Source of the DNA: a virus
Virus record (IMG/VR): IMGVR_UViG_3300024343_000049
Location: 1 to 36,356 of that record
Strand: one strand, 5' to 3'
Length of the DNA stretch: 36,356 nt
The notes under the pieces were generated by a model. That model had not been told where the DNA came from and searched no databases. It saw only the letters and a program-made list of their open reading frames with translations. This document shows, one piece after another, positions 4,056 to 16,643 of this stretch (positions are counted from its first letter, which is position 1; every line of letters begins with the position of its first letter). The position numbers and the translations under genes were made by a program.

Positions 4056-4242
4056 CGTCTTCCTTTAACATGACCTTAACATTAGGTGAGCCAAGAGATT
4101 CTAGCTCTCTAGCCATACCCAACACTAACTCTTGATATGCTTCGATTTGGTCTTCCATATCTCGGACTTTATCAATAAGATAGTGTAGGTATAGACCTAG
4201 AGCGATCATTCCTACAATTATCATCCATGCGTATTCAGTCAT
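4042..4242 (-). CDS. Small membrane protein with coiled-coil tail
   Basis: 66 codons. Residues about 5-23 form one hydrophobic segment (YAWMIIVGMIALGLYLHYLI), followed by a heptad-like charged helix (DKVRDMEDQIEAYQELV) and a very acidic end (DDDEE). The arrangement resembles spanin-like or regulatory membrane microproteins, but it sits inside the replication operon, not among the lysis genes. Its ATG overlaps the dCMP deaminase stop (ATGA) and its 3' end overlaps the metallopeptidase start by 14 bases. Function unknown. Confidence 0.65.
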   Translation of the reverse strand: MTEYAWMIIVGMIALGLYLHYLIDKVRDMEDQIEAYQELVLGMARELESLGSPNVKVMLKEDDDEE

Positions 4243-11783: not shown

Positions 11784-12022
11784 AGTACTTTCTCCTCTTG
11801 GTCATACACTTCGTTGTAATTTACCACACAACCCTCTAAATCTACTGTGTTACAGAGATTTTCGATGGTAGTTAGGTCTTTTGCAGTAGCAAATACATTA
11901 TGAACTCCTGCATGATCTACAGAAAGCACTGCCTCACAGCTAAATTCTGCGAGAGATTCAATGATTTCTTCAATCGAGGTGCCTACGTTGTCCTCATTTA
12001 GTGGTGTTAGCAGCATATACAT
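11780..12022 (-). CDS. Hypothetical protein
   Basis: 80 codons, acidic, predicted alternating strand/helix (IEEIIESLAEFSCEAVLSVD, NVFATAKDLTTIENL). AAGGAG eight bases before the ATG, the same leader style used by the next genes upstream. No family recognised. Confidence 0.65.
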   Translation of the reverse strand: MYMLLTPLNEDNVGTSIEEIIESLAEFSCEAVLSVDHAGVHNVFATAKDLTTIENLCNTVDLEGCVVNYNEVYDQEEKVL

Positions 12023-12033
12023 GTCAATTCTCC

Positions 12034-12186
12034 TTAGATAAGCTTATAGCTGTTCATGTAGTTAACGAAACTGATACGCTTCCTGCGTAATACAGTACCT
12101 ACCCAGAAGTCCCAGGTATCTGCGTCAGAAGCGTAAGGGAAAATCAGGTAGAGATTACCTGAGATGTACTTGAGTTGTGGTTTCAT
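12034..12186 (-). CDS. Small hypothetical protein
   Basis: 50 codons with AAGGAG seven bases before ATG 12186. Basic and aromatic (ISGNLYLIFPYASDADTWDF, VLRRKRISFVNYMNSYKLI). Its stop merges with the Shine-Dalgarno of the next gene (TAAGGAG), as do others in this cassette. Confidence 0.65.
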   Translation of the reverse strand: MKPQLKYISGNLYLIFPYASDADTWDFWVGTVLRRKRISFVNYMNSYKLI

Positions 12187-12197
12187 CTGTATTCTCC

Positions 12198-12305
12198 TTA
12201 GTAGATGATTACTTGGTAATTCTCAGGCGAGTATTCGTTGAGAATGGCTGGGTTTGTGGTCTTCGCCACTAAGACTTGTGTCAAGCGATGGTAGATGAAG
12301 TACAT
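12198..12305 (-). CDS. 35-aa microprotein
   Basis: ATG 12305 with AAGGAG six bases upstream; TAA at 12198 fused to the next Shine-Dalgarno. Product begins MYFIYHRLTQVLVAKTT. Too short to classify; the regular spacing and strong ribosome site support translation. Confidence 0.55.
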   Translation of the reverse strand: MYFIYHRLTQVLVAKTTNPAILNEYSPENYQVIIY

Positions 12306-12315
12306 GGTTATCTCC

Positions 12316-12669
12316 TTAAATAGCAATCAAGCCAACAAAGTATGAGTCAGTTGTGTATTTGCGACCATTAACACTAGTAGCAAAGAACACTACCTCTTGA
12401 TTAACCCTTTTAGCAAGGCGATTGTATATATCGCTAGTAGTTAATGTTGTGTTAAAAGTTTTGTTTACCGTCTTTGTTACAACAGCCCTAGTTCTAAAGT
12501 CAGAACAGATAGCAACAACACGATCACCTTGATTTAAGATGATCTTGATTGTCACTGGTTCAGACACAGAAACATCTGGCAAACTGAAGAGCTTGCTTAG
12601 TCGAGCGTTCTCAGCAGAGGAGAAAGCAGAGGTAAAAGCAGAGGTAAGATTGAGAGTAGCCGTTGTCAT
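12316..12669 (-). CDS. Hypothetical protein
   Basis: 117 codons, Thr/Ser/Val-rich, probably beta (TIKIILNQGDRVVAICSDF, RTRAVVTKTVNKTF, EVVFFATSVNGRKY). AAGGAG six bases before the ATG. The 102 bases upstream (12670-12771) are non-coding, with a small AGAGG/CCTCT hairpin at 12719-12733 and a possible 13-codon leader ending in ATGA at this start. Confidence 0.65.
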   Translation of the reverse strand: MTTATLNLTSAFTSAFSSAENARLSKLFSLPDVSVSEPVTIKIILNQGDRVVAICSDFRTRAVVTKTVNKTFNTTLTTSDIYNRLAKRVNQEVVFFATSVNGRKYTTDSYFVGLIAI

Positions 12670-12771
12670 TGTAATCTCCTTGAGTAATGACAGCCTATGA
12701 TCCGCATAGGAACGGTGTAGAGGAAAACCCTCTTAGAAGCACCCTGAAGGATGCAACTAGGAAAGCTCTCT

Positions 12772-12939
12772 TTAGAGTTCAGGAGCAGGACGGAACTCCA
12801 CAAGCTCACCAAGCTCATCCGCAACGATGTTACACTCGGTGGCAACCAACTCTGCGTCAGCTTCAGACAGGCCCGAAGCGTACAGCTCATCTTCACGACC
12901 ATTGGCACAAGACCACACACACCAGTTTTTGTTTGTCAT
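12772..12939 (-). CDS. Small acidic hypothetical protein
   Basis: 55 codons, ATG 12939 (AGGAG seven bases before) to TAA 12772. Acidic (GREDELYASGLSEADAELVA, VADELGELVEFRPAPEL) with a WCVWSCANG start. Higher GC than the replication genes. Longer frames on both strands cross this locus but lack ribosome sites. No family recognised. Confidence 0.65.
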   Translation of the reverse strand: MTNKNWCVWSCANGREDELYASGLSEADAELVATECNIVADELGELVEFRPAPEL

Positions 12940-13028
12940 TTGACAACTCCTAACCCCAGAAACCCCTGAGGAACGGGACGAGCACAGCGCTCTCCAAGGG
13001 TCTCCGTAGAGACCTATGGGCAGTACTG
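12940..13028 (-). other. Structured gap
   Basis: 89 non-coding bases with GGTCTC-CGTA-GAGACC (12999-13014), a perfect 6-bp tetraloop hairpin, and a GAGC/GCTC element around 12979-12992. No T-run follows, so a terminator is unlikely; mRNA processing or stability elements are possible. Confidence 0.35.
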
Positions 13029-13361
13029 TTACGGCTTACCGTAGTAGTTATTCAAACCCTCATTGATCTGGTCCATTGTGGCATTACGCATACCAGGGTC
13101 ATCGTCATCCAAGAACCTAGAGAGTTCACAATTAATCCTAGCAGCATTAAGCAGCTTTTGCAGAGCCATCTCGGTGACAAGAGGATTGTCAACAGTGTAA
13201 GACTCTATTGCGTAGTCAACGCTCTCCTGTAAAGTGTCACAAGAAACCCTCCAAGCAATTAGAAGGTCACATCCCTGAAGACGATCAACAACGTCTTGGT
13301 CGTACCCATGAAGGGTCAAGGTCGTAATGTCTTGGTGAATAGTGTCAAGTCCGTTTGTCAT
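13029..13361 (-). CDS. Hypothetical protein
   Basis: 110 codons from ATG 13361, preceded by AAGGA at seven bases; an upstream in-frame ATG at 13475 lies inside the neighbouring gene and is rejected. Acidic, helical; contains CDLLIAWRVSCDTLQESVDY and a DDDDPG loop. The stop of the preceding gene provides part of the ribosome site. No family recognised. Confidence 0.6.
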   Translation of the reverse strand: MTNGLDTIHQDITTLTLHGYDQDVVDRLQGCDLLIAWRVSCDTLQESVDYAIESYTVDNPLVTEMALQKLLNAARINCELSRFLDDDDPGMRNATMDQINEGLNNYYGKP

Positions 13362-13371
13362 AGTAATTTCC

Positions 13372-13866
13372 TTAGAAAGGTGCGTCAATAGAATAGTCAT
13401 ACTGCTCACGAGTGAGCCTCCTAGCCTCAGCAAGGTTATGGAAGGCAATGTCGCGGTAATAAGCAACAGCATCACGGTACTCAGCGTCTGAATCGGAGCT
13501 TTTCTTTCTGCTCAAGGTAGGAAGGAACACCCAAGAGTAAGTATCCCACCAAGCAACAAGAGGAGCAGAAGGTTCACGACCAGACATCCAGTGAGGACAG
13601 CCCTTAGACCGCCACCACTTTAAGTGCCTGTACACAGAGTTAGGAATATCACAGCCACGAAGAGCCATATCAAGAATCTCAGATTCAAAGTCACCAGAGA
13701 AAGAAGCGTCTTGCTGGAGATCACCAGCAACAGCCCGAGAGAGCTTAGGACGAGACCGAAGGTAAGAGACAGGCGCATAAGACCCACAAGGATGTGAGAC
13801 CATTACACCATCACGGATGTCAACGCGTTTACGAACAAGAAGGTTAACAGTGTTAAAGCGTTTCAT
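13372..13866 (-). CDS. Hypothetical protein, largest of the accessory cassette
   Basis: 164 codons. Basic N-terminus (MKRFNTVNLLVRKRVDIRDG), Trp-rich middle (HLKWWRSKGCPHWMSG, LVAWWDTYSWVFLP) and an Ala/Tyr helix near the end (YRDAVAYYRDIAFHNLAEARR). GGAG seven bases before the ATG lies in the end of the upstream gene. A is under-represented on the coding strand compared with downstream genes. No family recognised; a host-directed early protein is a guess from its position. Confidence 0.6.
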   Translation of the reverse strand: MKRFNTVNLLVRKRVDIRDGVMVSHPCGSYAPVSYLRSRPKLSRAVAGDLQQDASFSGDFESEILDMALRGCDIPNSVYRHLKWWRSKGCPHWMSGREPSAPLVAWWDTYSWVFLPTLSRKKSSDSDAEYRDAVAYYRDIAFHNLAEARRLTREQYDYSIDAPF

Positions 13867-13867
13867 T

Positions 13868-14035
13868 TTACATCTCCAGAGAGTTAAGACCGAAAGAACA
13901 AGCGAAGGTTAACAACCCACCACAGACGAGGAGCAACAAGCACTCCACAGGCGGGAACATAAACAACGCACCAAGGAAAGCAAGCCCGATAGAGAGCAAG
14001 CCAAGAAGACCGAAGAAGCGAAAGAAGAAAGACAT
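13868..14035 (-). CDS. Small membrane protein, two hydrophobic segments
   Basis: 55 codons from ATG 14035 with TTGGAGG five bases upstream. Two hydrophobic stretches (residues about 3-27 and 32-48: LLSIGLAFLGALFMF and CLLLLVCGGLLTFAC) separated by PPVE suggest a hairpin inner-membrane protein. The coding strand is A-poor (four A in 13921-14040), which itself favours hydrophobic codons, so the membrane call needs caution. One base separates its stop from the next ATG. Confidence 0.6.
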   Translation of the reverse strand: MSFFFRFFGLLGLLSIGLAFLGALFMFPPVECLLLLVCGGLLTFACSFGLNSLEM

Positions 14036-14060
14036 AGGAACCTCCAAGAAAGAAAAAGAG

Positions 14061-14408
14061 TTAAGCAGCTTCAACACCAACGAACCAGGTATCAGGCGAG
14101 TAACCGAACGCAGCACAGAAGCGAACAGACGACCCAACACGAGCCGACAGACGAGAGAACACAAGGTCCACCGAGACCGAACGACCCAAGGCACGAGAGG
14201 CGTACGAAGGACGACAAACACGGACACGACCGTCCGAGCAGACCACAGAGACCGAGTCCACACCAGACACCGACACAGCCACAACCGACACGGGAGCAGA
14301 CCACCGAGCACGAGGAACGGAAGCCAACAGCGAGGAAGGACGAGGAGCAGCGACAGAGGAAGCAGCACCAAGGACGGGAAGAGAAGAAACAAAAGAAGAG
14401 AGAGACAC
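14061..14408 (-). CDS. A-depleted gene with GTG start, unknown function
   Basis: 115 codons if started at GTG 14408. GGAG at 14418-14415 sits six bases upstream, and its A is the only A on the sense strand from 14537 to 14258. The product has a Ser/Val/Ala/Pro-rich N-terminus (MSLSSFVSSLPVLGAASSVA) that could be a secretion signal, then a beta-like body (DSVSVVCSDGRVRVCRPSY, GRSVSVDLVFSRLSA) and a normal-looking end (FGYSPDTWFVGVEAA). The first 50 codons contain no A, so residues needing A are absent. Other frames are open too because stop codons need A; this frame is preferred for its ribosome site and realistic C-terminus. Confidence 0.5.
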   Translation of the reverse strand: MSLSSFVSSLPVLGAASSVAAPRPSSLLASVPRARWSAPVSVVAVSVSGVDSVSVVCSDGRVRVCRPSYASRALGRSVSVDLVFSRLSARVGSSVRFCAAFGYSPDTWFVGVEAA

Positions 14409-14520
14409 AACGAACTCCAGAAGCCACAGAGGAAGAAGAAGCGCGGGACCGCAGGGCAAGACGGCAACACGCAGGAGAGCGACCCACCAGAAGAGGGGGG
14501 ACACGAACGAGGAAGGGGCG
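14101..14520. other. Thymine-depleted (plus) / adenine-depleted (minus) tract
   Basis: By count, the plus strand has six T in 420 bases; 14258-14537 has one (14416). All other bases are common (roughly 38% A, 28% C, 33% G in the part counted). Covers most of the GTG-start gene and its leader. Effect fades downstream along the minus-strand transcript. 14409-14562 holds no gene that I can support. Confidence 0.9.
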
Positions 14521-14562
14521 AACCCAAACCAACACCCTGATTCTTTGACACAGAGAGAGGTA

Positions 14563-14594
14563 CCCCCCAAACATTCCCCCAAAAACCCTCCCCC
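14563..14594 (-). other. G-quadruplex motif in cassette leader
   Basis: Minus strand: G5-A-G3-TTTTT-G5-AATGTTT-G6. Four G-runs with loops of 1, 5 and 7 bases, a canonical G4 pattern, upstream of the A-depleted gene. It would be present in the nascent RNA and in the non-template strand. Confidence 0.6.
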
Positions 14595-14662
14595 AAAAAA
14601 TCCTAGGGGTTACCCAAAACCTAATACAAAATATTACTTTTAGAAATGTAATAAGAGTTATT

Positions 14663-14682
14663 AGTCGGTTCCTAATAGGAAA
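14663..14682 (+). promoter_or_regulatory. Putative phage RNA polymerase promoter E
   Basis: AGTCGGTTCCTAATAGGAAA; one T for A inside GGTACC. It points at the large terminase, with a short leader carrying AGGA. Two other palindromes flank it: TAATAA-GAG-TTATTA at 14649-14663 and ATACAT-TTT-ATGTAT at 14684-14698. The minus-strand cassette promoter must also lie near here but no convincing -10/-35 is seen. Confidence 0.65.
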
Positions 14683-14715
14683 TATACATTTTATGTATTT
14701 TATAGGACACAAGTA

Positions 14716-16347
14716 ATGAATAATAAAGAGAAGCTAGAAGCGCTGAGAGAACTCAAGAGAAGAGAAAAGCTAGCTGAATACAAGGATAACTTTGAGTTAT
14801 TTGCTAAAGAACAGATTAAGATCTTACCTAAAGATTCTTCGCAGGGCTTTCAGCCATTTACGTTTAATAGTGCTCAAAGTATTGTCAATGAACAAATTGA
14901 GAAACAGTTGAAAGAAACTGGTAGAGTTAGAGCGATTATATTGAAGGCACGGCAGATGGGTTTAAGTACCTATGCTACTGGTAGAGTCTTCTGGAAGAGT
15001 TATTTTAATGCCTATAACAAGTCAGTTGTTATGGCTCATGATACAGCTACCTCGGATGCTTTGTTTAGCATGTCGAGGAATACTATCGATAATATGCCTG
15101 AGCAGTTTAAACCTAAGTTCAAGAAGTCTAATGCTAAGGAGATCATGTTTGAACACAACGATTCAGGTTACAGATTATATACAGCTGGCTCGCCGGAGGC
15201 AGGCCGAGGAACTACACCGACTATTGCGCATCTTTCTGAGGTGGCTTTCTGGACTCACGATGAGAAGATTCTCGCGGGTATGTTCCAAGGTATTTCACAA
15301 GCTAAAGGTACAGAAGTAATTCTAGAGAGTACTGCTAATGGAGTAGGGAATGCCTTTCATAGGTTATGGCAGGGTGCCGTTAAAGGAGAGAATGAGTATA
15401 TTCCTATTTTTGTTCCTTGGTTTCTTATGGAAGAATACCGTAGAGAAGCCCCAGAGGGCTTTGAAAGAACCGATAAAGAAGAGATATTAGTTACTAGGTT
15501 TAAGTTAGATGATGATCAACTTTACTGGAGGAGACTAAAGATAGCTGAGGGTGGTGAGGATAAATTCCGTCAGGAGTACCCCGCTACAGCTGATGAAGCA
15601 TTTATTGTTTCAGGGGCTAACGTATTTAATATTGAGAAGCTAGCTGCTCTAGTACCCCAACCTATATTAGCTTCTAAGGAGTTTAACTTCGAGTCTAATA
15701 TGATGGAAGATAAGGATAGGGGATCAATAGAGATCTTTAAGTATCCTATGTTTGGAGATTCCTTTACTATTGGTGCTGATGTATCTTTAGGAGTAGGTAA
15801 AGATTCTTCTGCTGCAGTTGTTATGAATGCAGATAGAGAAGTATGTGCTGTATATAGAAACAATATGATAGATCCCTCTAAGTTTGGTGATCTTTTGTTT
15901 TACTTAGGTAGGTACTATAATAATGCTCTTTTAGCTGTAGAGTCTAACTCTATGGGTATTGCTACATTAAATAGGCTTACACAGATGCAGTACGTTAATA
16001 TGTACTATCAGACTAAGTTAGCTAATGTTTCTAAAGAAGAAGGTAACAGGATTGGATGGAGGACTACCTCAGCATCTAAGCCAGCTATTATTGGATTCTT
16101 AAAGAATGCTATCGATAATGAGGATATCTGGATTCCTTCTAGACTAGTTATTGGGGAGCTAATGAATTATGTGGCAGATGACTCAGGAAAAACTAATGCT
16201 ATCGTTGGTCATAATGACGATACTGTTATTGCTCTAGCTATTGCCCTTGAAGTTATTAGAACACATGGTGATAGATTAAAGAATAATAATGTACCCTTTA
16301 CACAGAAGATGGGCAACTTTCAACAGATAGAAACTAACTGGCTATAA
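14716..16347 (+). CDS. Terminase large subunit
   Basis: 543 codons. ATP-driven packaging motor and nuclease. ATPase: K77-A-R-Q-M-G-L-S-T85 (Walker A-like), IAHLSEVAFW with E175 (Walker B), ESTANG at 204-209 (coupling motif). RNase H-like nuclease: D355 in GADVSLG, E409 in AVESNS, D501/D502 in GHNDDT. Length and motif order are typical of T4/T7-type large terminases. AGGA before the ATG; promoter E just upstream. First gene of the long plus-strand structural transcript, while its probable small partner is 4.3 kb away. Confidence 0.95.
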   Translation: MNNKEKLEALRELKRREKLAEYKDNFELFAKEQIKILPKDSSQGFQPFTFNSAQSIVNEQIEKQLKETGRVRAIILKARQMGLSTYATGRVFWKSYFNAYNKSVVMAHDTATSDALFSMSRNTIDNMPEQFKPKFKKSNAKEIMFEHNDSGYRLYTAGSPEAGRGTTPTIAHLSEVAFWTHDEKILAGMFQGISQAKGTEVILESTANGVGNAFHRLWQGAVKGENEYIPIFVPWFLMEEYRREAPEGFERTDKEEILVTRFKLDDDQLYWRRLKIAEGGEDKFRQEYPATADEAFIVSGANVFNIEKLAALVPQPILASKEFNFESNMMEDKDRGSIEIFKYPMFGDSFTIGADVSLGVGKDSSAAVVMNADREVCAVYRNNMIDPSKFGDLLFYLGRYYNNALLAVESNSMGIATLNRLTQMQYVNMYYQTKLANVSKEEGNRIGWRTTSASKPAIIGFLKNAIDNEDIWIPSRLVIGELMNYVADDSGKTNAIVGHNDDTVIALAIALEVIRTHGDRLKNNNVPFTQKMGNFQQIETNWL

Positions 16348-16358
16348 GGAGAAATACT

Positions 16359-16643
16359 ATGGCTGAAAAAGATTCAAGATTAACAAGAGCTGGTGTATCT
16401 GGCTACAATAAGCCTAAAAGAACCCCTAGCCATCCTACTAAGAGTCATGTTGTTGTTGCCAAAAGTGGTGACACGGTAAAGACAATTAGATTTGGTGAGC
16501 AGGGTACCTCTGGATCTCCTAAGAGTTCAGGGGAATCAGACTCAGATAGAAAGCGTAGAGAGTCCTTTAAGGCACGGCACGCTAAGAATATTGCTAAAGG
16601 CCCTTTATCAGCAGCATATTGGGCTGACAAAGTTAAATGGTGA
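16359..16643 (+). CDS. Small basic phage protein (DUF6321-like)
   Basis: 94 codons, basic. Recognisable pattern: KPKRTPSHPTKSHVVVAK, KTIRFGEQG, RRESFKARHAKNIAKG and a SAAYWADKVKW end, as in a small conserved family found next to terminase or portal genes of many aquatic phages. Function unknown; nucleic-acid binding is plausible from charge. GGAGA before the start. Confidence 0.75.
   Translation: MAEKDSRLTRAGVSGYNKPKRTPSHPTKSHVVVAKSGDTVKTIRFGEQGTSGSPKSSGESDSDRKRRESFKARHAKNIAKGPLSAAYWADKVKW

Follow-up and report, generated by a model that had tools for sequence, protein, structure and literature searches.

The window analysed here, by which we mean positions 1–36,356 of virus record IMGVR_UViG_3300024343_000049 (W below, with L and G numbers denoting the records of relatives), has at the head of its early operon a zone from which A is almost completely missing on the coding strand. 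Within it the A of the coding strand (the T of the template) is excluded regardless of sequence context. This holds both for the untranslated leader and for coding sequence, where the encoded proteins have been rewritten to suit. That this A-exclusion zone is a conserved and strand-specific phenomenon we regard as virtually certain, and in this group of water-borne phages it appears to be a genome feature of a new kind; a limited literature search, by terms in open papers, found no precedent for it. Our best overall explanation, to which we assign a probability of roughly 0.5, is that a genuine GGAG/GTG start lies in a conserved zone where purifying selection acts against A early in the transcript. 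The zone, conserved, anchored at a defined site and fading over 2 kb, points to a process of early infection that has gone unrecognised: a directed mutator, or else a hazard specific to one base.

The core of the zone, read on the minus strand, covers 14258–14537, which takes in the 5′ leader followed by codons 1–50 of the first early gene. A sequence-only reading had reported that the sole minus-strand A in these 280 nt is at 14416, within a GGAG six bases ahead of a GTG start at 14408, and this proved exact: the plus strand of the interval contains one T only, at 14416, and the minus strand reads GGAG (14418–14415, with the A at 14416), TTCGTT and then GTG (14408–14406). Equally exact was the statement that 50 A-free codons follow this start, the next minus-strand A being 14257 in codon 51. 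The two T-free plus-strand runs, of 158 and 121 nt, are the longest runs in the window that lack any single base; outside the A-free region the longest such run is 49 nt (C-free), and 60 copies of the window generated by a first-order Markov model reached 60 nt at most. At the window T frequency of 0.293, the probability of one T or fewer in 280 nt is 9 × 10^-41. Chance as the cause of the A-free core is excluded. A also persists in a conserved box just upstream, in stop codons and in a few Asp and Tyr codons. Since a tract whose two strands lack A and T respectively allows no stop in any of the six frames, long open frames in it (13868–14596 and 14092–14712, for example) are by themselves no evidence of genes.

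Early genes in the window run leftward from 14.5 kb and late genes rightward from the terminase large subunit gene terL (14716–16347, plus strand; PHROG match, 8 × 10^-30), which is the first gene of the late operon and is not depleted. The A-free stretch is the leader plus first gene of the early operon. The portal gene, an SU10-type capsid gene, DNA polymerase A and a dCMP deaminase (of dCMP type, its best match being the structure of a phage dCMP deaminase) are also present. With terL and portal proteins 59% and 53% identical to those of CRP-7 and with the same early/late layout, the window belongs among the CRP-7-like podoviruses. A T7-like RNA polymerase gene is found in CRP-7 and in the relative G002, and the window ends before that gene.

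The first initiation site and the first early gene

The first early gene, g1, encodes 115 amino acids at 14061–14408 on the minus strand, and we consider the gene and its GTG start (14406–14408) almost certainly genuine. When W is compared with L002, the g1 frame shows 30 synonymous and 13 nonsynonymous differences and the other frames 6/37 and 1/42; the nonsynonymous share of 30% compares with 74% under random substitution among C, G and T. The homologs of g1 begin at the same residue, with ATG at that place in L027, L037 and L048. With purifying selection confined to this frame and a conserved Shine-Dalgarno and start, the sequence comparison classes g1 as a protein-coding gene with bacterial initiation. 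A paralog with ordinary composition lies 1.7 kb further downstream in the same operon (12316–12669, minus strand; BLASTP E 2 × 10^-5), and it serves as an internal control, with 23% A at its fourfold sites and none at the 96 fourfold sites of g1.

Alignment of the g1 family shows a core resembling CSDxRxR, in which the S, the D and both R are invariant. In the structure model of g1, 78 residues have a pLDDT of at least 90, and they lie in the C-terminal domain. Its matches in the PDB are weak and OB-fold-like: archaeal aIF1A is the top one (E 8 × 10^-3), and further weak matches are lysyl-tRNA synthetases and AB5-type B subunits, both with an OB fold. The model thus suggests a small binding domain, predicted to be OB-like over about residues 30–115, and we make no finer assignment. 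No homolog of g1 or its paralog was found by tblastn in the phage collection.

The sequence-only reading had proposed that A is removed everywhere except where ribosome binding needs it, which stands in modified form. Depletion strength was measured for each genome at +150 to +400 from the box, which is beyond the first ribosome-binding site in nearly all of them. The first Shine-Dalgarno and start codon together retain at most one A in 18 of 18 distinct strongly depleted genomes and in 7 of 24 weakly depleted ones (Fisher p = 2 × 10^-6, kinship ignored); the other 17 weakly depleted genomes have two or more, as GGAG plus ATG or richer. The strongly depleted genomes reach this in different ways. 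GGAG(G) is combined with GTG or TTG in W, L002, L004, L016, L020, L021, L029, L037, L041 and others, GGGG is combined with ATG in L017, L027, L031, L046 and L048, and L023 and L054 have GGGG with GTG and so keep no A at all. The GGAG...GTG arrangement is retained in L002 and L004 despite divergence of the surrounding tract, but it is not general, and the part of the earlier proposal that made GGAG itself the requirement falls away. A is thus trimmed even within the ribosome-binding site, down to the minimum that still allows initiation, and GGAG as such is not essential.

The zone in relatives and its shape

In about 60 relatives whose terL is 82–100% identical to that of the window, the zone occupies the equivalent place, just past the box at the head of the early operon. 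Where enough sequence is available, T is scarce or absent over a stretch upstream of terL in nearly all relatives, least markedly in L073, and the T-free runs reach 259 nt; several marine relatives (L134, L145, L163, L166 and L170) have an A-free stretch as well. Near-complete genomes have one main zone apiece. In the cultured Roseobacter phage CRP-7 (MK613349), runs of 224, 168 and 104 nt at 57384–57896 lack A, again at the head of its early genes; this phage shares the tract and the operon layout with the window and has a first ribosome-binding site of GGGG...ATG with a single A, but differs in having ten more annotated genes between the tract and terL. The zone is not an assembly artefact. 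None of the unrelated or distant podoviruses used as controls (Clew-1, VPp1, CRP-1, CRP-4, Vibrio phages and a Manatee Spring podovirus) has a comparable tract; their longest run free of A or T, 88 nt, falls among structural genes.

The sharp 5′ edge of the zone is marked by the conserved box, which reads CTGTGTCAAAGAATC in the window (14539–14553, minus strand) and TTTGTGTGTG..AAAAGAATC in relatives, and which is single-copy in every genome with a match to the motif. Between an AT-rich region and the box is a G-rich block (TTTTTTGGGGGAGGGTTTTTGGGGGAATGTTTGGGGGGTACC; 14559–14600, minus strand), and in 42 relatives G is raised to about 0.31 at −75 to −25 of the box. We assume that the box is at or near the transcription start; its role could be that of promoter, processing site or origin. 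In many relatives a sigma-70-like −10 element can be seen by eye about 100 nt upstream of it.

When 42 divergent genomes are aligned at the box, the coding-strand A frequency falls from 0.27 before the end of the box to 0.115 at 0–25 nt, 0.028 at 25–50 and 0.003 at 50–75, and then recovers smoothly to 0.15 at 350 nt, 0.19 at 500, about 0.27 at 1000 and about 0.36 past 2 kb. With increasing distance, A at fourfold sites is 0, 0.01, 0.05, 0.18, 0.28 and 0.40 in strongly depleted lineages and 0.08, 0.18, 0.21, 0.38, 0.46 and 0.47 in weakly depleted ones. Residues that need an A-containing codon make up about 4% of the first 250 nt in the strong lineages vs. about 53% downstream. The same gradient is visible along the early genes of the window, all on the minus strand: A occupies 0/96 fourfold sites in g1, 0/29 in the second gene (13868–14035, whose ribosome-binding site retains two A in GGAGG and ATG and which encodes a 55-aa hydrophobic protein homologous to that of the first gene of L006), 5% in the third (13372–13866, 164 aa), 13% in the fourth (13029–13361), 23% in the g1 paralog and 23–50% thereafter. 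Tested gene by gene within protein families, the trend of third positions with distance is weak overall (r = 0.2), because the strength of the zone differs among lineages.

A is depleted about equally in every neighbour context, and at fourfold sites it is replaced mostly by T, which rises from 0.28 to 0.63 as G rises from 0.08 to 0.18. The leader diverges about as fast as synonymous sites do (0.21 vs. 0.15), and changes that involve A are 20% of those in the leader vs. 59% at fourfold sites of terL. Depletion strength varies widely and leader/first-gene modules move between lineages, so terL is a poor clock. L061 and L062, for example, have two differences in the 90 nt before the box and differ at 31 of 104 positions in the leader; such modules seem to be swapped between lineages.

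Selection, mutation and other causes

The sequence-only reading had ascribed the pattern to selection rather than random bias. Chance has been excluded above; when selection is weighed against biased mutation, the sequence tests tilt the balance towards selection without deciding the matter, and we slightly favour it for the following reasons. In 10,159 fourfold sites the best fit is an exponential decay of log-odds with a length of 599 nt (negative log-likelihood 4908), ahead of an exponentially decaying A-specific mutation rate (4923), a step (5246) and no gradient (5942), although the advantage over the mutation model is modest and the lineages are not independent. Non-A changes run at synonymous speed while A-involving changes are suppressed. 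In g1 neither G-to-T nor T-to-G changes are raised, contrary to what is expected if G passes through a fast-decaying A state, and the compositionally ordinary g1 paralog outside the zone also supports selection. Counting against it is C–G exchange in g1, which is raised about 3.5-fold relative to C–T, as a model of mutation by passage through A would predict.

Under selection, A would be purged from the earliest RNA, or T from the strand that templates it, with a cost per A that is greatest at the transcription start and decays along the transcript. Such a decay would be expected if a base-specific hazard or shortage struck the segment transcribed first, at the outset of infection and ahead of the action of early proteins. 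The hazard might consist in template T being attacked or causing stalls, in an activity that acts on A in RNA, or in a limited supply of ATP. In its full form, this account holds that every A in the head of the first RNA, or every T in its template, is dangerous early in infection, and that the zone is maintained by selection against a base-specific host or phage activity at the expense of ATG starts and most A-requiring amino acids; we put it forward tentatively, and an early-infection hazard as the source of the cost is possible but doubtful. We know of no molecular cause by which the cost of a single A could override ATG and GGAG. Since the cultured CRP-7 shares the feature, its cause is directly testable.

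Localised A-directed mutation proceeding from the box, with A kept only where its loss is very harmful (one A in the ribosome-binding site and some Asp and Tyr codons), is a less favoured but serious rival. The process would be linked to transcription or replication; it could set out from an RNA-primed origin or R-loop situated behind the G-rich block, and an error-prone polymerase that stays on its template for a few hundred nt is another candidate. The sharp onset and smooth decay resemble a processive event, the lack of context dependence and the raised C–G exchange agree with it, and the G-rich block and AT-rich region by the box look origin-like. It is opposed by the slightly worse gradient fit, by the behaviour of G-to-T and T-to-G changes and by non-A substitution in the zone, which is not strikingly raised. 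The prevalence of A-to-T over A-to-G is unfit for adenine deamination, which we reject as the main cause (the phage deaminase is moreover of dCMP type). Diversity-generating retroelements change A alone with little context dependence, and the depletion seen here is likewise clearly A-specific, but their target is the 3′ end of a gene and the zone is at the head of an operon; no reverse transcriptase (PF00078) was found in 14 records, with control genomes positive, although several of these records are fragments and a host enzyme could act in trans, and 12000–16400 of the window contains no near-identical template/variable repeat pair differing at A. We reject a retroelement of this kind for want of the enzyme in those 14 records. 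Immunoglobulin somatic hypermutation begins shortly past a promoter, decays over 1–2 kb and has a strand bias at A; it is, however, a vertebrate, deaminase-triggered process with hotspots, and the zone has neither a context preference nor an A-to-G signature. TA and GC skews that fall with distance are known near starts of transcription and replication, and like the zone they are strand-specific and peak at a start site; such skews are small, whereas the zone loses one base almost wholly, start codon included.

A concrete form of the selective explanation is that the genome contains a hypermodified thymine or uracil, so that, until an early inhibitor has been produced, template T or U is attacked or brings the host RNA polymerase to a stall. 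The resulting cost would fall on the template strand, be specific to one base, ignore context and lessen over time, and there is a dCMP deaminase in the window and in G002; the lack of thymidylate synthase, ThyX and dUTPase in 15 records is compatible with it and proves nothing, as many phages are without these enzymes. We think it unlikely: the 25 families listed for CRP-7 include no dCMP deaminase, no gene for a known uracil-glycosylase inhibitor or for base modification turned up, and elsewhere in the early operon template T is plentiful.

It is very unlikely that the zone serves to keep restriction sites, or other motifs at which DNA is targeted, off the DNA that enters first. A strand without T loses all type I and most palindromic sites, and depletion at the early-operon head that decays with distance would fit protection until early proteins appear; T7 likewise guards its leading end. 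Depletion is not confined to recognition motifs, however, all contexts of A being affected alike. Any set of motifs could be removed by far fewer changes, asymmetric sites would remain, and GC-only sites (GCGC, GGCC) persist in the tracts, by inspection rather than statistical count. The absence of context dependence likewise disposes of restriction motifs as sole cause, of UV damage at template dipyrimidines, of ADP-ribosylation at GA and of RNase cutting at AU.

That the composition is imposed by the encoded proteins (hydrophobic or rich in Ser, Ala and Arg) or by a structured RNA is scarcely credible, even though first genes often encode small membrane proteins and the leader is conserved, since the untranslated leader is equally A-free and fourfold sites lack A, which refutes it, members of the g1 family outside the zone freely use Lys, Asn, Thr and Asp, and the leader RNA has neither a consensus structure nor extra folding stability (z-scores near or above zero), on which ground a structured leader is rejected.

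Minor observations

Small OB-like early proteins form a family with several paralogs per genome (12316–12669 and 14061–14408 in the window; also L002, L006, L015 and L023). A SegE-type GIY-YIG endonuclease is encoded at 567–986 (PF19835, E 3 × 10^-33), a family matched by 2 of the 32 window proteins scanned. A candidate promoter of the T7-like RNA polymerase for the late operon (AGTCGGTTCCTAATAGGAAA; 14663–14682, plus strand) is conserved in relatives, with one or two copies per genome where matched, one of them adjoining terL. The coding-strand G runs at 14559–14600 (G5AG3T5G5...G6) could form a quadruplex or favour an R-loop. A small hairpin resembling AGAGCG(T/A)(C/T)CTTGCTCT recurs between the first and second early genes of L020, L021, L054, L064, L067 and L073 and may be a processing site.

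Contigs L155, L158 and L160 end at the same base (the terL match begins at 4087 in each), approximately where the A-free tract would begin, and L176 and L178 end close to it; the shared end of the three is either an assembly break at the variable tract or a physical genome end. In six contigs (L026, L032, L034, L051, L075 and L076) the first base lies no more than about 30 bases from the terL start codon, a number that seems high for random breaks.

CRP-7 gp72 has been deposited on the minus strand across the A-free tract (L085:28271–28966, which is CRP-7 57271–57966). The evidence says, contrary to that annotation, that the real gene is on the plus strand and starts at the ATG after GGGG. Gene callers misplace genes in stop-free zones of this kind, where genuine starts are GTG or TTG, and annotations there should be read with this in mind.
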